Virus record (IMG/VR): IMGVR_UViG_3300044626_001227
Coordinates: 1 to 21,149 of that record
Direction: 5' to 3' (one strand)
DNA from: a virus
DNA length: 21,149 nt
This document shows positions 1,925 through 18,617 of the stretch, one piece after another; position 1 is the first letter of the stretch; each line of letters begins with the position of its first letter. The notes under the pieces were generated by a model. The model was not told where the DNA came from, made no database searches, and saw nothing but the letters and a program-made list of their open reading frames with translations. The position numbers and the translations under genes are program-made.

Positions 1925-2269
1925 ATGCTAACTAAGACAACAAAACGCCCGATTTGTGTTGAATGTAGGGTGCGTCCTGCACGTTCTTGTGGAAAAAGTG
2001 TACAAGGGTTTCCTAAATGGAGAAAATACTGCAGTAGTTGTGATAGTAAAAAATACAGGAAACAATTACAAAAAAATTCTACGTGTGAAACCTGTGGTTT
2101 TATAGCTAAGCATAGTTGTCAATTAGATTTGGTAAGGATTAGTGGAAAGTATAAAACTTATTGTTCTAATTGTAATCGTTTAAGAATACAAAACTTAAAA
2201 CAAAAAGCACACGATGAGTATGAATTAACTGTTGATGCTACTGTTGATTTAAATGAAATAACAATATAA
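1925..2269 (+). CDS. Small protein with two tandem Cys-rich zinc-ribbon-like modules
   Basis: This 114-aa protein is the only supported gene on the plus strand. It contains two similar cysteine modules: C11xxC14, C22, C36xxC39, and C54xxC57, C65, C80xxC83. The spacing is nearly the same in both (CxxC-x7-C-x13/14-CxxC), so the gene looks like an internal duplication. Basic residues surround both modules (WRKYCSSCDSKKYRK and YKTYCSNCNRLRIQ), which fits nucleic-acid binding. The C-terminal 20 residues are acidic. Similar Cys clusters occur beside the catalytic core of phage HNH endonucleases, but no HNH core is visible here. It could be a regulator or a relic of a homing endonuclease. It lies between two minus-strand genes, so it needs its own promoter. 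The family is not recognised. Confidence 0.7.
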   Translation: MLTKTTKRPICVECRVRPARSCGKSVQGFPKWRKYCSSCDSKKYRKQLQKNSTCETCGFIAKHSCQLDLVRISGKYKTYCSNCNRLRIQNLKQKAHDEYELTVDATVDLNEITI

Positions 2270-2505: not shown

Positions 2506-3207
2506 TTATCTATATTTTGCCAACCTACAAATCCTTAATATATTAAACCACATCCAACCTGTATCAAATTCATACCATTTCAAGCTTAGTTTAGGGCTAG
2601 CGGGATCATTATGATGGTTGTTATGAAGTTCTTCACCACCAATTATGATACCAATTGGGAATAAATTTTTGGATCTATCATTGGTATTGTTGTTACGATA
2701 GCCCACGTAGTGACCAAGACCGTTAACAACACCTGCAGCCCAAAAAGGTATCCACGCCATTTGGATGAGCCAAATAACAATCCCCCAACCGTTAAACAAT
2801 ATAGTATTAATAATGAGTAAAGCAAGGATGCCATGTACTGTGTATTTACTGTATATATTTCTTTCTACCCAATCATTAGGTGCACCTACACCATATTGGT
2901 CTATCATTTGTCTATTTTTTGTTGCTATATTATATAACCATGCGCCACGAAATACTACGTTAAAAATACCATAAACATGTGGTGAATGTGGATCACCAAT
3001 TTGTTCTGTATAACGATGATGTTTACGATGTACTGCAACCCATTCTTTGGTAACCATGCTTGTAGTTAGCCATAACCAAAAACGCATGAAATGAGATATG
3101 ATAGGGTGGAAAGTTATGCCACGATGTGCTTGACTACGATGAAGATATAATGTTACACAAAGTATTGTGATATGGGTAGATACTAGAGTGTAGATTATTT
3201 CTATCAT
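2506..3207 (-). CDS. Fatty acid desaturase (delta-9 / DesC-like, three His boxes)
   Basis: This 233-aa integral membrane di-iron desaturase would put a double bond into an acyl chain, using O2 and electrons from a donor such as ferredoxin. All three histidine boxes of the acyl-CoA/acyl-lipid delta-9 family are present: H23RSQAH28, H60RKHH64 and H195NNHH199, plus H166 in GHYVGY. Hydrophobic segments lie at about residues 4-22, 37-52, 125-150 and 150-165. It is shorter than most cellular homologues (often 270 aa or more) and has no cytochrome b5 domain, so the electron donor must come from the host. In a phage it is an auxiliary metabolic gene, probably changing host membrane fluidity during infection (inference). 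It follows the protease gene after 25 nt. The ribosome site is weak, and a GGTAAATA element sits just upstream. The exact position of the double bond cannot be read from sequence. Confidence 0.9.
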   Translation of the reverse strand: MIEIIYTLVSTHITILCVTLYLHRSQAHRGITFHPIISHFMRFWLWLTTSMVTKEWVAVHRKHHRYTEQIGDPHSPHVYGIFNVVFRGAWLYNIATKNRQMIDQYGVGAPNDWVERNIYSKYTVHGILALLIINTILFNGWGIVIWLIQMAWIPFWAAGVVNGLGHYVGYRNNNTNDRSKNLFPIGIIIGGEELHNNHHNDPASPKLSLKWYEFDTGWMWFNILRICRLAKYR

Positions 3208-3232: not shown

Positions 3233-5764
3233 TTAAATAGACAACCCTGTAATTGTAACTCCTGTAAAGGTAACTTGAGTAGACGTTGGGGTTGGTACAA
3301 TATCTGAATTATATAATACACGTCTTGTTCCACCCATCAAACTATTTAAATCTGCCCAATCTGAACTTGTTGCAGTTGCAGGTGTAGGCCCTTGATAAAA
3401 TTTATTAGAATCTTGTATATCTAAACTTTGTAACCAAGTACGTACATCTTGCCATGTCCAACTACGATTTTGTTGCAATTTTGTTGCTATTAATCCTGTA
3501 GAAACAGGACATGCTGCACTAGTGCCACTAAATGCAGCATCATAAAATTCTGCAGCTTGACTTGAATTTAACCCAATTTGTATATCGAATTGATTTCGAG
3601 CATTTTCATACATGGTAAATTCCCATACCATGTTAGGGCTACCAACTACCCCTGTAATATCATCAGTGCCTTCAAACCTAAAACGAATTGTTCTATTTGG
3701 TGAAGTACCCTCAAAACCACCATAACAACGTTGGCAACTATTATCTGCTGCGCTAATCATAATTTTTCTCATGGCAGGGGTTGAATTATTCCACGTAAGA
3801 TCAATATATCCTGAAGTAAATGTGATTAAGCTATTAGTACTAATGTATACGTTACCAAATGTTGAATTAGCGAACGTGATAGTAAATCCTCCACCTCCTG
3901 CAATATTAACACCGTAATATCCATCATCATTATCACCACCTGATATAGACAATAAACTTAATCCCGTTGATCCTTTTAAATCACTAGCAATTGGAGTTAA
4001 TGTTGCCGTAGTATCACTTGTGGTAACTAATCGCCACCCTGTATTAGGCTCAGCAGTAAAACTCTCTGTACCACTTAATTGCGCAATTGCGTTACAAATT
4101 GCAGTGTATCCACGTGTTGTACCTGATGGTTCATATGTATCAGGACGTAAATATTGAGTAGCATAACCACGGTTTGCAGCCATTGTTCCATCAGCAGGAG
4201 CATATACATCAATTTGTTCGCCCATATCGCTATAGTTAACTTTACGTTCTTTACCATCTGACATGAATTGATCATCTAGTGCACCAATGTTAATTGCAGG
4301 ATAAACAACATTAGCACCTGATGTATATTTTCCTAATTGTTGTGGGAAACCTCTACGACTTGTAGTGTTATAACAAGTCAACCCAAATTCACTATGTGTT
4401 GCACTTGCTAAAGGCGTGTTTAACGCACTTGCCCAATAATTATTATAATCAGGTTGATCTGATCCTACTTGTTGTTGGTTACTATTTCCCGCAGCAACTA
4501 CAAAAATAACACCTGCCTGAATCATTTCAGCACCTGCTTCGGTAAAACTGTTGTCAACCATTTCACCTTTAAAACGATTTGCATCGCCTGTTGATCCAAG
4601 ATATTGCATAAACGCAGGTTTTGTGCTACTTGTAAATGATACACCACCTGTTCCTGAAGTACCCTGTCTAAAATAATATGCGCCACTTGTTATAGGAAGT
4701 GTAGCACGATAGCCCCAACTATTACTTGAAATGGTTGGGTTACGTGTGCCATGCGTTGCGTTAATTGGTTTATTTTGATGAAATAATTTCATCATATCAA
4801 AATATTGTTCAATACCTAATCCATAGGTACCATAGACGTTAATAAACCATTTATTTGCATTGTATGCCCAACCTTGTGTTCGCCCATAGGTTAATGCTGC
4901 ACAACACGTACCATGGTCACCTTCATTAGGAAAAGTTGTATTGTCTCCATTACAATTAGCTCTTGTATAACTTGCAGTAACGGTAACAGTACCCATACTG
5001 CTAAATGATGACGAACGTGCTGAAGAATTACCCCACCAATTTCTTGCAACTGATTCAACAGGTACAGTAGTGCCATCCCATCGGGTAGTTAAGCGGGTAC
5101 CAGGGTTAGCGTTAAAATAATCAGGATCTATGTAATATGGTCCTTCTAAAACCATGTCTAATAGCATACAAGTACCTGCTGCATCTAGCGGATTACCACC
5201 AATTAAATTAGTAGGACCTGAACCTGCATTGTCTTGAAACTCAACGTGCCCAAATGCACATCCATCATCGCCAACAATTACATCAACGCCCACACCTGTA
5301 TCTGAAATATCAATCCTATCTTGAATAACTGTTTGACTATTCAACCCATACCATGGGTTTTCTTTTTGTGTCATTCGTAAAAGTTGGTAACCTGTACGAT
5401 TTGTATCTGCCTCAGTAAAGTTAGTAGGCATAATACTAGGATTAGAAAAGTTTCTATAATTTTTTACGTTAGAAGCGTATCTATACGTAGCATGTAATTG
5501 GTCAGGAGGAGGTTTAAATTCATCATAACTTGCATAATCTAAATTTACAAATTTAATTGTTGGATGTTTAGATAATTCTTGTGCTTCTTCATCAGATAAA
5601 AGATAGGTAGATCTTGTTGGGCTATGTGCTTTATAATCCACTAGTTCTACTGCTCTTTGTGGGATATTATCTTCTAAAGTGCCATCTCTTGTTAAAAGTT
5701 CATGTAAATAATCCCAATCAGCTTCAGAGTTACAGCATATTTGATAAAGTTTTTTCTCACTCAT
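3233..5764 (-). CDS. Subtilisin-like (S8) serine protease with an inserted virion-type domain
   Basis: This 843-aa protein has the full subtilase set in order: Asp166 in VGDDG followed by GHVEF, His284 in GDHGT, the oxyanion Asn427 in VVAAGN, and Ser749 in FSGTSAACP. Residues about 50-75 (YLLSDEEAQELSKHPTIKFV) resemble the end of an I9-type propeptide, so it may be made as a zymogen. No signal peptide is visible, so it probably acts in the infected cell or on the virion. About 320 residues separate Asn427 and Ser749, far more than in ordinary subtilases. The extra part (about 560-740) is beta-rich, with NVYISTNSLITF, CQRCYGGFEGTSPNRT and MVWEFTMYE. From memory, domains of this kind occur in structural proteins of marine phages. 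It lies 18 nt downstream of the YadA-like fibre gene, which suggests virion protein processing or host surface cleavage (inference). Confidence 0.85.
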   Translation of the reverse strand: MSEKKLYQICCNSEADWDYLHELLTRDGTLEDNIPQRAVELVDYKAHSPTRSTYLLSDEEAQELSKHPTIKFVNLDYASYDEFKPPPDQLHATYRYASNVKNYRNFSNPSIMPTNFTEADTNRTGYQLLRMTQKENPWYGLNSQTVIQDRIDISDTGVGVDVIVGDDGCAFGHVEFQDNAGSGPTNLIGGNPLDAAGTCMLLDMVLEGPYYIDPDYFNANPGTRLTTRWDGTTVPVESVARNWWGNSSARSSSFSSMGTVTVTASYTRANCNGDNTTFPNEGDHGTCCAALTYGRTQGWAYNANKWFINVYGTYGLGIEQYFDMMKLFHQNKPINATHGTRNPTISSNSWGYRATLPITSGAYYFRQGTSGTGGVSFTSSTKPAFMQYLGSTGDANRFKGEMVDNSFTEAGAEMIQAGVIFVVAAGNSNQQQVGSDQPDYNNYWASALNTPLASATHSEFGLTCYNTTSRRGFPQQLGKYTSGANVVYPAINIGALDDQFMSDGKERKVNYSDMGEQIDVYAPADGTMAANRGYATQYLRPDTYEPSGTTRGYTAICNAIAQLSGTESFTAEPNTGWRLVTTSDTTATLTPIASDLKGSTGLSLLSISGGDNDDGYYGVNIAGGGGFTITFANSTFGNVYISTNSLITFTSGYIDLTWNNSTPAMRKIMISAADNSCQRCYGGFEGTSPNRTIRFRFEGTDDITGVVGSPNMVWEFTMYENARNQFDIQIGLNSSQAAEFYDAAFSGTSAACPVSTGLIATKLQQNRSWTWQDVRTWLQSLDIQDSNKFYQGPTPATATSSDWADLNSLMGGTRRVLYNSDIVPTPTSTQVTFTGVTITGLSI

Positions 5765-5782
5765 TCTATATGTTCCAAATTA

Positions 5783-8700
5783 TTAAACGTTATAATAAAC
5801 AATTTCACCTGTTGTTGGGTTATAATAAACCACTTTCAAACCTGTTACATCTGTTACTGCTCTAACAGGTTTTACGGTAAATGTATTAGCAGTGGTTTGG
5901 TTTAGGTTTGATCCTGATGCATTTAATATAATGGTATTAACTGCTTGGTTGGTGTAACCTGCATTTGCACCAATTGCAATACTAGTTGCACCTTGTCCTG
6001 TATAACCTGCATATGAACCGATAGCAATCGTATTTGCCCCAGGCACCCCACCACGCTGCGCATAAGTACCCATACCAATACTGTCTGCACCTGTACCACC
6101 TGTTCGACCGACTTCAAAACCAATCGCTATAGAGTTTGCTGCGATAGCTGCAGTAGAGTTAGCTGCTACGTTAGTACCAATACCAATAAAGTTATTAGCA
6201 ATAGTAGGTGCAGCAGAGGCAGAATTCTTACCTAAAACAATCATACCATCAGCACTACCTGCTGTTGCACCAATGTTTGCACCTGCAGATCTACCCATGA
6301 AGATTGAGTTTGCTGCTGCATTAGAATTTTGTGATGCAAGATAACCAATTGCAATACTATCTGTAGCAAGAGAACTTTCACCTGCTTGTGCTCCAATAGC
6401 GATTGCACGTGTTACTGATGCAGCAACCGTTGAGTTATTAGCTTGTGCCAACGTACCAATAGCGATGGTGTTGGTGCCTGGGCCTTTGGTGGAGGATCCA
6501 ATTGAAATTGCATTAGTTGAACTAGCACCCGCTAAAAATCCTATACCAAGTCCTGCTGCACCCGTAGATGCACCATTACCAATTGCAATACCGTTACCTG
6601 TACTTGATGAGTTCATACCAAGTGCGACAACACCACCTGAACTGATGTTTATAAGGTTTGCATCTCTATTAGCATTGGTATATGCTCTAATATTTCCCTG
6701 AAAAATAATAGGTGTAGTACCTGAATTATAATTAGCTACTACCACACTATTTACAGTCACTGTGATATTACCGTTTGCTGATAAGACTGCAATATTACTA
6801 TTAGCATTACTTATGGATGATCCACCACCTCCACCACTTACTGTTCCCCAATAAGTAATACCATTACCGTATGTTGTCAATACTTGTCCGCTTGTACCAT
6901 CAGTGTTTGCATAAGTTACTGCGCCTACTACTATAGGATTTGTAGTGGTTGTTGCAATAAAGTTAGCTGTATTACCAACTAGTTCTAAATTAATACCTAA
7001 ATTATTAACATTGGCATTGCCACTAAAGTTAGCTGTATTCCCAACTAGTTCTAAATTAATACCTAAATTATTAACATTGGCATTGCCACTAAAGTTAGCT
7101 GTATTCCCAACTAGTTCTAAATTAATACCTAAATTATTAACATTGGCATTGCCACTAAAGTTAGCTGTATTCCCAACTAGTTCTAAATTAATACCTAAAT
7201 TATTAACATTGGCATTGCCACTAAAGTTAGCTGTATTCCCAACTAGTTCTAAATTAACTGTTAAGTTTGGTAGAATAACATTGCCACTAAAATTAGCAGT
7301 ATTACCCGCAATATCTAATTCAACTTGAACATTACCTGCAAAATTAGAAAGTGTATCAGAAATTTCTACTCTATTAGCAGCACCTGCTACAGAAATTGTA
7401 ACATTAGTATTAGCTGCAATTGAAACATTACTATTACCATTTTGTACTGTTGGTGTTTGAACACTGTCCAAAATAGCATTACCTGCACGAATATTAGCTA
7501 ACGTATTGAAGCTTATTACTTCGTTAGCAATACCAACGTCTGATCCAAAAGAAATTTCTGCATTGCTTACATCCCAACCCATCCAAGCAACTTTTGCTGC
7601 TGTATCAAAATAATTTAATGCGGTACCAACATCTTTACCACTATTACTTGCAGGTGCTGCACCATTTGGTCCCATTTGTAGTTGAATAATAGGATCTTCA
7701 ATTGCCAAATCTTCAACATTGACATAAACTAAATTACCATCAACTGTTAAATTACCTGTAATTAAACTATCACCTGTAACACTAATGCCTGTACTTGAAA
7801 TAACTAATACATTTGCAGTACCACCCACGCCAATTTCAACGTTAGCATCGGTAGTAGGTATAGATACATTACTTGTACCATTTGATATAGTTGAACCACC
7901 CGATAATACATCATATGATATTTCACCTGATGTACTGTCATAATACATTACATTTGACGTACTTGCTTGACGAACAGGTTTAACCGTAAAACTGTTATTG
8001 TTGGCTGCAAAAAGATTAGCACCTGTAGCATTTAATACAATAGCATTAGATAAATCATAAACTCGTGCATTAGCACCTATAGCAATAGAATCGCTTCCAT
8101 TGACATTTGCATTAAGACCAATAGCAATAGAATTACCCGAACCTGCATTTGCTCTTCCAATTGCTATAGAGTTTGCACCGCCAGCAGTAGCAACTCTTCC
8201 CAATGCAACTGCATCACTACCTTCGGCTGCAGGACCAAATCCAATTGCAATTGATTCTGAACCTGCTGCACCAGTGGCAGTGCCCGAACCTATTCTTATG
8301 CTATTATTACCTGTAGCATTAGTATTATAACCTATAATTATTGCATTTGCAGCATTAGCGGTTACAAGTGAGCCTATAGAAATTGAATTATTACTATTAG
8401 CATTAGCACGATTTCCTATGGCTATTGCGCTAGTTGCATAAGCATTAGGATTTGCTCCTATCGCTATAGTCCCTGCTAAATCTGCGTTAGCATTTTGACC
8501 TATACTAATAGATTGACTACCATTTGCTTTAGCGTTAGTACCAATCGCTACTCCACTAGCCCCGCTAGCAATTGCAGCATTACCCAATCCTATTGTATTA
8601 GCTGCATTTGCTACTACACTTCTACCAATACCGACAACACCATTGGAATATAAGTTTAATAAATTACCAACTAAATTACCACCTGCTGCAACACGAAATA

Positions 8701-9301
8701 CGTTAGCTGTACCATTTACGCTGAAATCTATATTACCTGCAGCAGTTGAAATACTTACATTACTATTACCGTTAGCAATATTTGAACCACCACCTCCACC
8801 TGATACGGTTGACCAATAAGTTATTCCGTTACCATAAGTAGTTAAAACTTGTCCATTTGTGCCATCTGCGTTTGCATAAGTAACTGCACCTGCAATAACT
8901 TTTCCTGTAACATTAGCATTACCTGCAATGTTTGTATTTGCATCACTAATAACAACAATATTTGGAGTACCATTAATACCTACAGTAACATTACCACCTG
9001 ATGTAGCAATACTAACATTTGATGTACCATTGGCTATATTAGATCCACCACCCCCACCACTAACAGTACTCCAACTAAGAATACCACTACCATCCGTGGT
9101 TAAAACTTGACCGTTTGAACCACCTGTAATAGATACATTTGCAACTGCACCAAGATTTGCATACTTAGTTATAGAAATATTTTGACTTGAATCAATAGTT
9201 AATGCATTGCTGCCACTAGTTTGTATCGCAAGGTTTCCTGTATTATCACTTGATAGGATAAAACCATTTGCATTACCTGTTGAGTTAAGAGTTACTGCCA
9301 T
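5783..9301 (-). CDS. Large YadA-like repeat fibre protein
   Basis: This 1172-aa protein is probably a trimeric fibre. It has two arrays of YadA-head-like repeats (SIAIGxxA type) at about residues 222-426 and 888-1128. Each array ends in the same type of closing segment: SFTVKPVR...VMYYDSTSGEISY at 438-463 and TFTVKPVR...VVYYNPTTGEIVYY at 1141-1170. Three copies of a fibre motif with GQVLTT, a Gly5 run and SNVSI-type strands lie near residues 63-100, 148-185 and 804-840. A segment near 525-600 (DLAIEDPIIQLQMGPNGAAP ... NYFDT) is a motif seen in marine phage fibres. Residues 685-781 are a perfect 22-residue repeat. AAGGA precedes the ATG. The gene lies between a small beta-repeat protein and a protease. 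The likely role is host recognition; no enzymatic motif was found. Confidence 0.85.
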   Translation of the reverse strand: MAVTLNSTGNANGFILSSDNTGNLAIQTSGSNALTIDSSQNISITKYANLGAVANVSITGGSNGQVLTTDGSGILSWSTVSGGGGGSNIANGTSNVSIATSGGNVTVGINGTPNIVVISDANTNIAGNANVTGKVIAGAVTYANADGTNGQVLTTYGNGITYWSTVSGGGGGSNIANGNSNVSISTAAGNIDFSVNGTANVFRVAAGGNLVGNLLNLYSNGVVGIGRSVVANAANTIGLGNAAIASGASGVAIGTNAKANGSQSISIGQNANADLAGTIAIGANPNAYATSAIAIGNRANANSNNSISIGSLVTANAANAIIIGYNTNATGNNSIRIGSGTATGAAGSESIAIGFGPAAEGSDAVALGRVATAGGANSIAIGRANAGSGNSIAIGLNANVNGSDSIAIGANARVYDLSNAIVLNATGANLFAANNNSFTVKPVRQASTSNVMYYDSTSGEISYDVLSGGSTISNGTSNVSIPTTDANVEIGVGGTANVLVISSTGISVTGDSLITGNLTVDGNLVYVNVEDLAIEDPIIQLQMGPNGAAPASNSGKDVGTALNYFDTAAKVAWMGWDVSNAEISFGSDVGIANEVISFNTLANIRAGNAILDSVQTPTVQNGNSNVSIAANTNVTISVAGAANRVEISDTLSNFAGNVQVELDIAGNTANFSGNVILPNLTVNLELVGNTANFSGNANVNNLGINLELVGNTANFSGNANVNNLGINLELVGNTANFSGNANVNNLGINLELVGNTANFSGNANVNNLGINLELVGNTANFIATTTTNPIVVGAVTYANTDGTSGQVLTTYGNGITYWGTVSGGGGGSSISNANSNIAVLSANGNITVTVNSVVVANYNSGTTPIIFQGNIRAYTNANRDANLINISSGGVVALGMNSSSTGNGIAIGNGASTGAAGLGIGFLAGASSTNAISIGSSTKGPGTNTIAIGTLAQANNSTVAASVTRAIAIGAQAGESSLATDSIAIGYLASQNSNAAANSIFMGRSAGANIGATAGSADGMIVLGKNSASAAPTIANNFIGIGTNVAANSTAAIAANSIAIGFEVGRTGGTGADSIGMGTYAQRGGVPGANTIAIGSYAGYTGQGATSIAIGANAGYTNQAVNTIILNASGSNLNQTTANTFTVKPVRAVTDVTGLKVVYYNPTTGEIVYYNV
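6959..7249 (-). repeat. 66-bp tandem repeat, four full units and a partial fifth, inside the fibre gene
   Basis: Near-identical 66-bp units recur at a strict period (the same AAGTTAGCTG start at 6961, 7027, 7093, 7159 and 7225 on the plus strand). Each unit encodes 22 residues, ELVGNTANFSGNANVNNLGI plus NL. A diverged relative flanks the array on each side. The near-perfect DNA identity points to recent expansion by slippage or recombination; the number of units should vary in relatives. Confidence 0.9.
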
Positions 9302-12143: not shown

Positions 12144-13460
12144 CTATCTAAACATTGGTCCTTCTATCCAAGTAACTAAAGAGTATCTAGTACCTGATTT
12201 AATTGGTGTAACTTCATGTGGCATAAAACTCGGAAACAAATGAACCGAACCTTGCTCATTTGAAGCTCTTATATGATTAGTATAATTGTTAATAACTAAT
12301 TCACATCCTGTATATGTATTTGGATCACTAAGTTGCACTACTACCGATATTTTTCTAAAAGCAAATGGGCCTGGACCCACATCAACGTGTGAAATGTAAT
12401 GCCCATTTTCACCATTATTGTTTGTTTCATATTCAAGTAATTGAAGGTAAGGATTGATACCCCATATATCATAGTTAAAATGTTTATGATTGGCAAAATT
12501 AACAATTAAACCTAATTTATGAAAAATCCATCGATTAGAATCGTTATTATGCACTGCATAATTATTAGCTGCACGTATCTTTGCAACATGTTTATTAGCA
12601 TTACCAACTTTTGCTGAATCTCCATAGGTATTAGAGATTAGCGCAATAATTGACTTGCATTCTTCTTTTGTAAAAGAAATTTCAGAAGCATTGCTTGGAG
12701 TGCACCCGAAATAACTTGGTAACTCACGTGGTAAAGAAGGTAACATAACATAATCAAAAATTGGTGTAGGAATATCTATACTAATTTTTTTATTGTTTGC
12801 TATAGGTTCATCTTCATATAACTTGTATGAATCTTCAACGATAGATTTTCTTTTATTATCTGCAATAATAGGTTTTTTTAAATTGTTTTGAGTAATAGTA
12901 TTTTTTTCTATGCCTAATTGTGATCTTTTATCTAATACATATTCTGTGTATGGACCATCAGCATCAACATAATGTAAAAAAACTTGTACTTGCCACGTGC
13001 CTTTGTATTTTGGTCGCCAATGCGTAACTTCACAACCTTTGTATACAAGCAAATCACCAATGTCTAAATTTAATTTAATTTCTTTTTCTTCATCAACATA
13101 TATAGGCCAAACAACTTTTCCATCAAAGCCTAAGGTAATAGTGGCACTAATTTCACAAGAAGGTCTATCTACATGTTTTTTTAGAATTTCATTTGGTCTA
13201 TAAATTCTTGCGTATGTATACGTTGGTAATAGTTTTCTTCCAACATGTTTTCCTATTGGATCTGCTAATTCACTTAACAAATTATCAAATACTTTATCAC
13301 CATAAACAGCATCTGACAATGGGCATTGTTCATCTTTAACCGTCTTATTATTTTTATGTAATTCAAACATGTGATTAACTAACTCAGTACATGATTCTGA
13401 ATCTAAAGCATTACTTAAAACTACATACCCATTGTTTTCAAAATAACTAATCGTATCCAT
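12144..13460 (-). CDS. Tandem 2OG-Fe(II) dioxygenase (two prolyl-hydroxylase-like domains)
   Basis: The 438-aa protein has two double-stranded beta-helix dioxygenase domains joined by a polar linker (about 175-240). Domain 1 (1-170) shows iron ligands H96xD98 (KKHVDRP) and H147 in THWRPKYKG, followed by QVQVFLHYVD; Arg149 is a possible 2-oxoglutarate contact. Domain 2 (265-438) shows H358xD360 (HYISHVD), H415 (FMPHEVTPI) and Arg425 (SGTRYSLVTW), a classic prolyl-4-hydroxylase-like set. Both sites look intact. These enzymes hydroxylate with O2, 2-oxoglutarate and Fe(II), releasing succinate and CO2. Substrates are unknown; virion proteins or host surface molecules are options. It starts 12 nt after the sulfotransferase stop with AAAGGA upstream, so the two are very likely co-expressed. 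Confidence 0.85.
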   Translation of the reverse strand: MDTISYFENNGYVVLSNALDSESCTELVNHMFELHKNNKTVKDEQCPLSDAVYGDKVFDNLLSELADPIGKHVGRKLLPTYTYARIYRPNEILKKHVDRPSCEISATITLGFDGKVVWPIYVDEEKEIKLNLDIGDLLVYKGCEVTHWRPKYKGTWQVQVFLHYVDADGPYTEYVLDKRSQLGIEKNTITQNNLKKPIIADNKRKSIVEDSYKLYEDEPIANNKKISIDIPTPIFDYVMLPSLPRELPSYFGCTPSNASEISFTKEECKSIIALISNTYGDSAKVGNANKHVAKIRAANNYAVHNNDSNRWIFHKLGLIVNFANHKHFNYDIWGINPYLQLLEYETNNNGENGHYISHVDVGPGPFAFRKISVVVQLSDPNTYTGCELVINNYTNHIRASNEQGSVHLFPSFMPHEVTPIKSGTRYSLVTWIEGPMFR

Positions 13461-13472
13461 TACTTTCCTTTT

Positions 13473-14306
13473 TTACTCATCTAATACTTCAGGATAAAAA
13501 TATTCAAAGTACCATTTATTTTCTTTAATTACTTTATTATGAAAATTATCATCAAGGATTCGATTAGGCTTTGAATATTCTCTAAATTCTGTATAAGTTT
13601 CATGACTTACTTTTTCACGAAAATAAGAATGGTCGTGTTCAAATAAAAATGATTGATCAATTTTATTTAAATTATGATTAAAATAATCAAGATCTAAAAA
13701 TTTATAGATAACTTTTATAATTTTATTTGGATCAGCGGTAAAATCTTCATATCTAATAAACAATACTTTGCGTGGGTCTTGATTATAAAGTTCTAGTGAT
13801 TTAGGTATTTCATGATTCAATGTTACTGACAATGAATTAGGTTCGCCAAAATAATATTTAAATTTTTCTAACCAATGCATTCCCATAGTTACGATTCCAC
13901 TAGAATTATAAGTGTGTAATGCTTTAAATTTACGGTTTACTCGTTCAAAACTTTCTACAATGTCACGTAAATCTCTAATTACACATATGAACTTTGATTG
14001 AGGATAAAGGTGTAATAATGATGACCATCCATGCCTTTTTGATATTACAATTGGTTTATCAGTAAGTGCTTCAAACCACCCCTTTGTCCCACCTTGAATT
14101 AAACCATATGTTGCAATATCTGCTTGTTCACTTGACATCGCAATAAATGATTCCTGCTGTCTTACTCGTACAAGTAGTTTATCTTTTATTATATCGTATA
14201 AAGCACATGTACTCGTAGTAAAAATCTGCGGGTTTTGTTGCAAAATATTCATTAATATTGTACTACCCGATCTTGGTAGTCCACCGCAAAAATGTATTAA
14301 TTCCAT
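13473..14306 (-). CDS. PAPS-dependent sulfotransferase
   Basis: This 277-aa protein has the 5'-phosphosulfate loop GLPRSGST at residues 9-16, directly after the first beta strand. The 3'-phosphate binding segment VIRDLRDIVESF lies at 109-120, and FIRYEDFTADP at 184-193 is typical of the family. It would transfer sulfate from PAPS to a hydroxyl or amine group; the acceptor is unknown. The start at 14306 is needed to keep the first strand ahead of the loop, although no Shine-Dalgarno is present and a perfect late promoter ends only 5 nt upstream. It lies immediately upstream of the tandem dioxygenase gene. Sulfotransferases are known in marine T4-like phages, and a role in surface modification is inferred. 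Confidence 0.88.
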   Translation of the reverse strand: MELIHFCGGLPRSGSTILMNILQQNPQIFTTSTCALYDIIKDKLLVRVRQQESFIAMSSEQADIATYGLIQGGTKGWFEALTDKPIVISKRHGWSSLLHLYPQSKFICVIRDLRDIVESFERVNRKFKALHTYNSSGIVTMGMHWLEKFKYYFGEPNSLSVTLNHEIPKSLELYNQDPRKVLFIRYEDFTADPNKIIKVIYKFLDLDYFNHNLNKIDQSFLFEHDHSYFREKVSHETYTEFREYSKPNRILDDNFHNKVIKENKWYFEYFYPEVLDE

Positions 14307-14423: not shown

Positions 14424-16559
14424 CTAACTATCACTAGTACCGTTACTATTAAGTCTAGCTATATAGTTTGCAGTATTTCCATTAAACGTTGTGAAAAAAC
14501 CGCAAGCCATAATTTTACCGTCAGTTTGAGTACGAACACCACGTACTGAGTTTGATATCGCTTGGAATCCTGTACCCGTACCTGTTGTAAATGTTGCATT
14601 TAAAGCACCACTGCTACTAAGTTTAGCTATTCCATAACCAACACTAGAACCATTATAACTACTGAATTGACCACCAACAATTATATTACCGTCACTTTGA
14701 ACATCTATTGCAAACGTTGAATCATTAAAACCCGTACCCGTTACAAAACTAGTATCTCTAGTACCGTCTGAATTTAATCTTATTATACGATTTTGTGTAG
14801 TACCATTGAAAGATGTAAAAATACCACCTACAAGAATTTTGTCATCACTTTGAACTGCAATGGAAAATATTGATGATCCCGAACCAAATCCTGTACCAAT
14901 ATTAGTTGTAAAAGTTGTATCTATAGTACCATCTGTGTTAAGTCTAGCTATATAATTTGAAGTGGTACCATTATATGTAGTAAAAAGACCACCAACTACT
15001 ATTTTACCAGTACTTTGAATAGCTACTGCTGTAGCTCCGCCATTAAACCCTGTACCTACACTGAAACCTGTGTCTTTAGTACCATCTGAATTTAATCTTA
15101 TTATACGAGTTTGTGTGGCACTGTTATAGGTAGTAAAAATACCAACTACTACAATCTTACCATCACTTTGAACAGCTATTCCACGAGTACCATTATTAAA
15201 CCCCGCACCTTGTAAATTAAATCCCGTATCTCTAGTACCATCTGTATTCAATCTAGTTAAATAGTTTTGTGTAGTACCATTATAACTTGTAAAATTACCA
15301 CCAACTAAGATTTTACTATCACTTTGAATAGCTAGAGCACTAGGTATTGGGGCAGTTGAAAACCCAAGCCCCGTTCCAATACTAAACCCTGTATCCCTAG
15401 CACCCGTTGTAAGCAGTCTAGTTATATAGTTTTGAGTAGTATTATCATAACTAGTGAAACTACCCACTAATACAATTTTACCATCACTTTGAATCTCCAT
15501 TGCACGAGTTGCACCATTGAACCCTGTGCCTGGAACAAACGGTTCAGATATTGTAACCGTACTACTTGTAGCAACTACGGTTCCGCTAATACTGACCGTA
15601 CGTATTTGTACTTGGAATGTTTCTGGTCCTTCAGTGGTGACATCAGTGGACGCTGTAATATTAAATGATCCTGCGTTTGACGTAATAGTAAAGCTGCCAC
15701 TAGTAGCAACAAAATCAGCGGAAGATGTTGTAATATTTAAAACAGTCCAATATAAAGTTGTACTATCAGTTACATTAGTAGTAGCAACATTAAATGTTAA
15801 ACTTGATCCTTCATTAACTGAACTAGATGTAGGAGTTACACTATAAGTTGGATTAGTGCTAGTGTCTATAATCGTAATTGTGTTACTTGTAGCAACTACA
15901 GTACCACTAGTACTAACTGTACGTATCTGCATTTGGAATGTCTGAGATCCTTCGGTGGTAACATCATTGATCGTTGTAATATTAAACGATCCTGCGTTTG
16001 ACGTAATCGTAAAACTACCACTAATAGCAACAAAATCAGAAGAACTTGTTGTAATATCTAATATAGTCCAATATAAAGTTGTACCATTGACTACGTTAGT
16101 AGTAGCAACATTAAATGTTAAGCTTTCTCCTTCATTGATTGAGCTAGATGTAGGGGTTACACTATAGGTTGGATTAGTGCTAGAATCTATAATTGTAACT
16201 GTACTACTTGTGGCGACTACTGTCCCACTAGTACTGACAGTACGTATTTGCATTTGAAAAGTTTGAGAACCTTCAGTAGTAACATCATTGGTTGTTGTAA
16301 TATTAAATGAACCTGTGTTTGATGTAATAGTAAAACTACCGCTAGTGGCAACAAAATCAGCAGAGTCTGTAGTAATATCTAATACAGTCCAATAAAGAGT
16401 TGTTGAATCATTTACGTTAGTGGTAGTAACATTAAATGTTAAACTTTCCCCTTCATTGATTGAGCTAGATGTAGGAGATACACTATAGGTTGGCAATGCT
16501 TCAATGCCTGTATCCACAACAAAACCACCTTCAAATAATATACCACCCTCAAGTAACAT
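14424..16559 (-). CDS. Calx-beta / delta-60 repeat adhesin-like protein
   Basis: This 711-aa protein starts with a short Gly-rich leader (MLLEGGILFEGGFVVDTGIE). Residues 24-340 form three tandem Calx-beta-like repeats of 107 residues, each beginning TYSVxPTSSS and containing NEGESLTFNV, LYWTVLDITT and TTEGSQTFQMQIRTV. Residues about 345-711 form seven delta-60 repeats of the type VQSDGKIVVGGxFTTYNGTT...RLNSDGTRDTGF, a number that fits a seven-bladed beta-propeller. There is no classical signal peptide. Calx-beta domains are stalk modules, often Ca-binding, and propellers often bind ligands, so a virion surface stalk plus receptor-binding head is plausible (inference). TAGGATAA precedes the ATG and a perfect late promoter lies 20 nt upstream. 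The last delta-60 unit is cut a few residues short by the stop. Confidence 0.82.
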   Translation of the reverse strand: MLLEGGILFEGGFVVDTGIEALPTYSVSPTSSSINEGESLTFNVTTTNVNDSTTLYWTVLDITTDSADFVATSGSFTITSNTGSFNITTTNDVTTEGSQTFQMQIRTVSTSGTVVATSSTVTIIDSSTNPTYSVTPTSSSINEGESLTFNVATTNVVNGTTLYWTILDITTSSSDFVAISGSFTITSNAGSFNITTINDVTTEGSQTFQMQIRTVSTSGTVVATSNTITIIDTSTNPTYSVTPTSSSVNEGSSLTFNVATTNVTDSTTLYWTVLNITTSSADFVATSGSFTITSNAGSFNITASTDVTTEGPETFQVQIRTVSISGTVVATSSTVTISEPFVPGTGFNGATRAMEIQSDGKIVLVGSFTSYDNTTQNYITRLLTTGARDTGFSIGTGLGFSTAPIPSALAIQSDSKILVGGNFTSYNGTTQNYLTRLNTDGTRDTGFNLQGAGFNNGTRGIAVQSDGKIVVVGIFTTYNSATQTRIIRLNSDGTKDTGFSVGTGFNGGATAVAIQSTGKIVVGGLFTTYNGTTSNYIARLNTDGTIDTTFTTNIGTGFGSGSSIFSIAVQSDDKILVGGIFTSFNGTTQNRIIRLNSDGTRDTSFVTGTGFNDSTFAIDVQSDGNIIVGGQFSSYNGSSVGYGIAKLSSSGALNATFTTGTGTGFQAISNSVRGVRTQTDGKIMACGFFTTFNGNTANYIARLNSNGTSDS
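15540..16490 (-). repeat. Three tandem 321-bp repeats encoding Calx-beta-like domains
   Basis: The ACTATA(A/G)G landmark on the plus strand recurs at 15840, 16161 and 16482, exactly 321 bp apart (107 codons). The copies are similar but not identical at DNA level, so the duplication is older than that of the 66-bp array in the other fibre gene. Confidence 0.8.
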
Positions 16560-17405: not shown

Positions 17406-18617
17406 TTACTGAAATGATACGTTCTGTACAGCAATCTCGCCAACGTAGTCAGCAGCATTACCAAAGCTTGATGCTGTATTGGTAAGCTCAACATAACCAT
17501 AACGTGTCATGAAGCTAACTACAGGTTCGAATGTTGTTGGATCTAGAACAACACCACTGCTCATCAATGGAATGTATGGGCAATAGAATGCTGCTGCATC
17601 TGTCTCGCTTGAACCCTTATAACCAACCAATACTGCTGTACCTGTTGGAGCATATGAGTCAACGAAAACACGCATTGCGTTATTCAATGTACCAACAAAC
17701 TTAGTGTTTGTAGGTGCTTCGAATGTACCTTCAGTGGTACGTGCAAATGCTGATGTTGTTGCACTTTGGAGAATTGTTAAGCTTTCGCTTGAAACAACTG
17801 CCCAATTACCTGCGCCACGGCGTGTACGCTGTGCAATCAAGTTAGCAACACGATTGATCAATACTGCTAATGCTGCATGCTCATCACCTACGAATGTTGC
17901 AGTACCTGAAACGGTTGCTTGATTGTATGTGAATTCTGTTGCAGCTAAACTACGCAATGAAAGAAGAATTTCTTGGTCAATTTCAGCAGTAATTTCTTGT
18001 GCTAAAGCTGCCATGATTTCTGCTTCAACGTCGATACCATGTTGTGACTGTGCATCTTGTGCAGCCTCAAATGTCCAACGTGCTTGCAACTTACGTGACT
18101 TAGCTTCAACAGCCTGACGTAAGATCTGTACGCTGATTTGGCGACCACCACTACCTTCAAGAACGCTTGTATCAGCAGCAGTATAACGTGACTGATTTGT
18201 GTTAACAACACCTGCAGTAACGCTGCTTGCTGAAGAATATGCTTGCGCAATCTTGAATGGTGACAATGCTTCTTCACCTGCTACTGTGCTTGTTTGTGCA
18301 GCACTTGTATCGTTCATGTTATTAGCATAACGAACACGTAGTGTGTGAATTTGTCCAACAGGACCTGTCATTGGCTGAACACCTACCAACTCATTAGCGA
18401 TAACGGTTGGCATAACACGGCGGATAACGGGAAGAATAACACGGTTAAGTGTTGCAATGTTACCTGCTGTAGTTGTACCTGCTGAACTTTCAGCAAGTAA
18501 CTGCTTGCGAGTGTTTTCAAGAATGACACCCATCATTGAACGGCGAGTTCCTTTGAGACCTTCTAGAAGGGCTTCTTTTGTTTCACCCCAACGGCTCTCT
18601 AATAATACTTTAGACAT
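17406..18617 (-). CDS. 23: Major capsid protein gp23
   Basis: This 403-aa protein forms the hexameric capsomers of the head. Two regions match T4 gp23 as I recall it: VIRRVMPTVIANELVGVQPM followed by TGPVGQ near residues 63-90, and WTFEAAQDAQSQHGIDVEAE followed by helices near 181-220. T4 gp23 is 521 aa, so this is a short, diverged form. A site fitting the gp21 consensus (L/I-x-E) lies at LLAE43-S44, which would remove a basic helical N-terminal leader during maturation (inference). AGGAG and AAAGGA both precede the ATG. Upstream are scaffold and protease genes in T4 order; downstream is a UUCG-loop terminator. Confidence 0.95.
   Translation of the reverse strand: MSKVLLESRWGETKEALLEGLKGTRRSMMGVILENTRKQLLAESSAGTTTAGNIATLNRVILPVIRRVMPTVIANELVGVQPMTGPVGQIHTLRVRYANNMNDTSAAQTSTVAGEEALSPFKIAQAYSSASSVTAGVVNTNQSRYTAADTSVLEGSGGRQISVQILRQAVEAKSRKLQARWTFEAAQDAQSQHGIDVEAEIMAALAQEITAEIDQEILLSLRSLAATEFTYNQATVSGTATFVGDEHAALAVLINRVANLIAQRTRRGAGNWAVVSSESLTILQSATTSAFARTTEGTFEAPTNTKFVGTLNNAMRVFVDSYAPTGTAVLVGYKGSSETDAAAFYCPYIPLMSSGVVLDPTTFEPVVSFMTRYGYVELTNTASSFGNAADYVGEIAVQNVSFQ

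Follow-up and report, generated by a model that had tools for sequence, protein, structure and literature searches.

The subtilase encoded at positions 3233 to 5764 (minus strand) of the window, the whole 21,149-nucleotide stretch of marine phage DNA analysed here, is read with moderate confidence as a virion-borne tail protease of the zymogen type, in which exchangeable fibre modules would serve to tether or aim the enzyme; its activity is predicted. In the proposed mechanism, the tail-associated enzyme would be produced as a zymogen, with a predicted I9-like prodomain and no apparent signal peptide, and would be incorporated in the virion along with the fibre or baseplate-connector protein of the directly preceding gene. 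A fibre-type beta domain of ~190 residues, spliced into a surface loop ahead of the catalytic-Ser strand, would act as an accessory module outside the catalytic machinery, either holding the protease on the tail or aiming it at a substrate. The protease would most likely cut a polypeptide of the host surface during infection, or else trim the accompanying fibre. We infer both the presence of the protein in the virion of this phage and the tethering or aiming by its insert.

The 843-residue protein belongs to the Peptidase_S8 group and to the phrog_9158 family. It scores 53.5 bits against PF00082 in the Pfam scan, where the curated cut-off is 21.8 (E=3e-14), and the phrog_9158 profile covers residues 3-561 with E=4.3e-102. 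Relatives come from 30 phage records and from 76 IMG/VR loci. Pfam, alignment, AlphaFold2 and Foldseek delimit the first part of the catalytic core at residues 146-545 (4130 to 5329, minus strand). This part includes D166 (codon 5267 to 5269), H284 (4913 to 4915) and the oxyanion-hole asparagine N427 in an AAGN motif (4484 to 4486), each invariant in 64 of 64 aligned relatives. The catalytic serine S749 (3518 to 3520) is present in 63 of the 64, the sole exception being the truncated ORF of locus L062. By alignment and AlphaFold2, residues 738-843 (3233 to 3553, minus strand) form the end of the core, a last strand and helix with a GTSAACP motif, and a C-terminal tail. An earlier note on this DNA had claimed a complete subtilase set in these four residues, and the alignment bears it out: the tetrad is intact in sequence, and activity is predicted from it. 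The protease could also be inactive, or could cut itself alone.

The same note had put about 320 residues between N427 and S749; the measured spacing is 322, versus ~130 in insert-free relatives. In subtilisin BPN', 66 residues separate N155 from S221. Given these two reference spacings, ~190 of the extra residues can be assigned to the insert, and the remaining ~65 are family-wide. A core HMM built without the insert finds a single insertion of 191 residues after residue 546 of the window protein, in a surface loop of the S8 core that precedes the strand leading to S749. The inserted segment spans residues 546-737 (3554 to 4129, minus strand), slightly longer than the beta-rich part at about 560-740 that the note had described and that proves to be real. 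Within it lies the conserved beta domain, residues 573-735 (3560 to 4048, minus strand), delimited by alignments, AlphaFold2 and fibre relatives.

Structure prediction points the same way. Modelled alone from a shallow alignment of 17 relatives, the insert yields an all-beta fold of 13 strands (pLDDT 84.7, pTM 0.84). The full protein, modelled from a likewise shallow set of 38 relatives, reaches a pLDDT of 80.4 and a pTM of 0.69, with flexible linkers (pLDDT <50) on either side of the insert at residues 545-573 and 732-737. In Foldseek, the full model has 159 PDB matches at E<=1e-3, those listed being subtilases, with target TM values of up to 0.60, and its predicted fold is of the subtilisin type. 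The insert is thus confidently predicted to form a separate beta domain alongside an intact S8 core, as the note had anticipated, and the AlphaFold2 models of insert and full protein rule out a single continuous S8 fold. The best phmmer match, to subtilisin E, was set aside because it aligns insert residues to the S8 core. No PDB relative of the insert emerged by sequence, nor by fold at E<=1e-3, the latter from a shallow 17-sequence model and hence not proof of a new fold. Among viral models, the insert matches a 286-residue protein of S-SRM01 (3e-7), an RCC1-type phage protein (2e-6) and others.

Residues 1-75 (5540 to 5764, minus strand) form a predicted prodomain with the beta-alpha-beta-beta-alpha-beta order of an I9-like topology. 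The AlphaFold2 elements are strands at 4-11, 41-43, 51-57 and 70-75 and helices at 14-25 and 58-64. The best Foldseek matches of the full model are the pro-form ProN-Tk-SP and fervidolysin, and pro-subtilisin E is also among the best. By sequence, the N-terminal domain has neither a PDB propeptide match nor a Pfam I9 match, and no obvious signal peptide was seen by eye in the window protein. The predicted topology suggests that the window protease would be under zymogen control.

The insert can be judged no assembly artefact, since locus L018, an independent IMG/VR contig from another dataset, is 100% identical to the window protein over residues 1-843, and L016 and L017 (77-78% full-length identity) carry inserts at the same place that are 74-82% identical to that of the window. 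The insert at residue 546 is missing from most of the ~60 relatives in T4-like phages, and an ordinary subtilase variant was rejected on this ground. The note had also proposed a resemblance to phage structural proteins, and a search with the segment alone does retrieve tail fibres and free-standing proteins near fibre genes, besides subtilases. The domain occupies the same core loop in L016, L017, L107 and L108 and, in diverged form, in L020. In L098 it separates window residues 450 and 451, in another loop of the core (the insertion sites of L098 and L020 were fixed by eye and pairwise alignment), and in L100-L106 it lies C-terminal to the S8 core of a diverged subtilase. Outside proteases, it is free-standing or joined to another N-terminus in S-SRM01, L109, L110 and L125, the S-SRM01 protein adjoining fibre genes, and it forms part of an RCC1-repeat protein in L099. 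Annotated tail fibres of the Stenotrophomonas phages AXL_1 and DLP4 carry it, that of AXL_1 being the last structural gene ahead of the holin, as does a protein of Xanthomonas phage DoCa6. The S-SRM01, AXL_1, DLP4 and DoCa6 proteins share the domain at 34-37% identity, but with no protease domain attached. Aligned carriers, however distant, retain conserved motifs in the domain. A search of genome contigs gave only two matches, one at the end of a MAG contig and the other in a Nostocales protein. The latter is encoded on the Nostocales HT-58-2 chromosome (L130, 3635 to 5203), and by eye the segment that follows its beta domain appears lectin-like. Neither Pfam nor PHROG, both searched, holds a family that matches the insert domain. 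Since it has no Pfam entry and no PDB match, the segment 573-735 is a candidate for a new domain family, one that unrelated phages have in their fibres.

The protease gene is tightly coupled to a fibre gene. In nearly all loci, a fibre-like ORF with a high content of G, S, T, N and A lies directly upstream on the same strand, usually at -4 to +11 nt from the subtilase; in S-SSM7 and S-H38 this upstream gene matches baseplate-wedge/tail-fibre-connector families. In the window, the neighbour that the note had reported is a 1172-residue fibre ORF with YadA-head repeats (5783 to 9301, minus strand; PF05658, E=8e-9), 18 bp upstream on the same strand and a candidate partner or substrate. Near-identical short tandem repeats (LELVGNTANFSGNANVNNLGIN) occupy window positions 6945-7328 within it. 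Most protease-linked fibres (e.g. those of L003, L042 and L098) have in common a C-terminal domain of ~110 residues with the pattern IQSQKVLVM...AYSQEYAIMY...TPExGVSG...TYRF, a candidate docking or cleavage site. The window's 1172-residue fibre is without this domain, and the partner or substrate of the protease therefore cannot be read from the fibre's position alone.

This coupling is what keeps alive a fairly unlikely alternative, namely that the enzyme is an assembly protease that clips itself, or the fibre or connector encoded with it, as the tail is built, with the insert docking the fibre and no role at the host surface. The C-terminal domain common to most partner fibres would suit such a role, as would the presence of partner-fibre modules in some of the proteases. 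Against it, the C-termini of the partners vary by group and the common one is absent from the window fibre, while the rapid turnover of modules would be more typical of host-facing parts. Because the modules turn over fast, we lean towards a host-surface polypeptide, rather than the co-encoded fibre, as the substrate of a tail-borne protease.

The note's further proposal, that the protease is virion-borne, gains indirect support from the gene order with fibres and baseplate connectors, from fusions to tail or head modules (long C-terminal extensions in L081, L006 and L009) and from a distant homologue, S-SCSM1 gp144. The last, which is ~25% identical and has no insert at residue 546, is tagged 'virion protein', one of 47 such tags in the S-SCSM1 record by hand count. 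PMC9602691 reports 45 S-SCSM1 proteins by mass spectrometry and names NMNAT and D-Ala-D-Ala carboxypeptidase as detected though non-structural. The tagged set includes both, together with the lysozyme gene adjoining the latter, which appears to be the third non-structural protein of that report. Because the set includes non-structural proteins named there, the tag most likely denotes detection by mass spectrometry.

A second module recurs in the same proteases. In L042-L044 and L010, a cupredoxin-like module interrupts the core near residue 384; in L083 it lies near residue 87 of the core and in L032 at the C-terminus. These modules are mutually homologous, are homologous also to parts of fibre proteins whose genes immediately precede those of other subtilases, and match phrog_677 (baseplate wedge tail fibre connector) and phrog_15006 (tail fibre). 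They are unrelated to the domain inserted at residue 546 and may deserve a separate domain entry. In L042, L010, L083 and L032 the module has a GTYYYQCEYHGGMVG motif, and phage fibres share this module. Two unrelated modules are thus found at four internal core sites (546, 450/451, ~384 and ~87) and at C-termini, which argues that what counts is that fibre module and protease are physically joined, whatever the exact position.

Such indifference to position favours a role in tethering or aiming over one modelled on CspB, the S8 germination protease of Clostridium. Like the window protein, CspB has a beta domain inside its S8 core; its prodomain has a predicted counterpart in the window protein. 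CspB depends on this jellyroll of ~130 residues for its stability and autoprocessing, and it retains the prodomain in bound form (PMC3567191). By analogy, the window insert would pack on the S8 core and prodomain, rigidify the protease or gate its active site, and bind nothing else. This is unlikely, even if the insert loop adjoins the catalytic Ser strand. A dedicated stabiliser would be expected at one position, whereas the insert is missing from most relatives and the beta domain also occurs in a second loop, C-terminally and in proteins other than proteases; moreover, AlphaFold2 predicts its linkers to the core to be flexible. In contrast to the CspB jellyroll, described at one place, the window domain is larger and mobile among phage fibre proteins. 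Its model, itself from a shallow 17-sequence alignment, matches neither the CspB/Tk-SP jellyroll fold nor any other PDB structure at E<=1e-3.

The history of the insert was followed on a maximum-likelihood tree computed from the S8 core after removal of the insert. Proteins with the insert at residue 546 do not form one clade (single clade rejected, AU p=8e-53), and at least four changes of state are required at this site, a count blind to gain versus loss. L108 pairs with L022 and L020 with L023 and L028, these partners all being insert-free, and L107 and the tandem paralogue L016a, which has no insert, fall in one group with the window, L016b and L017. The L016 paralogues (3297 to 5324 and 5624 to 8146, plus strand) stand in tandem on one contig, without and with the insert, respectively. 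The beta domain's own tree is poorly resolved. Since fibre modules have come or gone at several sites among its relatives, the protease has the look of an exchangeable tail component and not of an ordinary enzyme.

The insert is also under purifying selection approximately as strong as that on the core. Its dN/dS values are 0.09 and 0.16, versus 0.11 and 0.13 for the core, all approximate as dS exceeds 1; in the Nei-Gojobori comparison with L017, subject to the same limit, the insert gives 0.09 and the main core 0.11. Neutral hitch-hiking, whereby recombination would paste promiscuous fibre modules into tolerant loops of virion proteins with no function for the protease, fits the patchy occurrence and the several insertion sites but is very improbable given this core-like constraint, the motifs conserved across distant carriers and the repeated occupation of the same loop in separate lineages.

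The wider window holds further features. Its major capsid protein (17406 to 18617, minus strand) is 65-67% identical to those of jumbo T4-superfamily phages of ~350-470 kb, the closest being from Vibrio phage 2.275.O, Sinorhizobium phage Phosso and Escherichia phage A4. Given this resemblance, the 21-kb contig probably represents one fragment of a much larger genome. A cyanophage origin was dropped in view of the same capsid affinity, although the protease family itself is known mostly from cyanophages. Putative auxiliary genes stand amid the fibre genes at 2506-3207 and 12144-14306 (minus strand), with matches to fatty-acid desaturase (PF00487), sulfotransferase (PF13469) and, weakly, 2OG-Fe(II) oxygenase. 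A 711-residue protein (14424 to 16559, minus strand) has three similar N-terminal repeats of ~105 residues and, after them, DUF5122 beta-propeller repeats (PF17164, E=2e-90), and a zinc-ribbon-like ORF of 114 residues with repeated CxxC motifs (1925 to 2269, plus strand) runs opposite to the ORFs around it.

Several known systems resemble parts of this arrangement. The cyanophage members of phrog_9158 (T4-GC 292), S-SSM7 SSSM7_232 and P-SSM2 PSSM2_297, are of the same family, have the same tetrad, lie near baseplate and fibre genes and already carry a PF00082 domain note in their records. They differ in having no insert at residue 546; over the shared parts, the window protein is ~48% identical to the S-SSM7 protein and ~26% to that of P-SSM2. 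PA-domain subtilases (C5a peptidase, lactocepin and cucumisin) have an accessory domain between the His and the Ser of their S8 core. They are alike in placing an accessory domain within the core, but Pfam scans detect no PA domain (PF02225) in the window protein or its insert. The literature searched yielded no paper describing tail-linked subtilases with fibre modules in the catalytic core.

A bolder and more tentative possibility is that the S8 core acts as a socket, several surface loops of which take interchangeable fibre or adhesin modules. One protein would then combine a fibre or receptor-binding element with a protease, module exchange would re-mount or re-aim the protease, and residues 573-735 would represent an undescribed phage fibre domain, possibly of a new fold. 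The question can be tested on relatives with and without the insert, which in one case stand in tandem on a single contig. Among the enzymes known from phage tails are depolymerases and lysozymes. If the tail-protease reading is true, a tail-linked subtilase family, widespread in marine T4-like phages, would be a protein-cutting counterpart of the tailspike depolymerases, and it would show a phage mounting an enzyme through the enzyme's own core.
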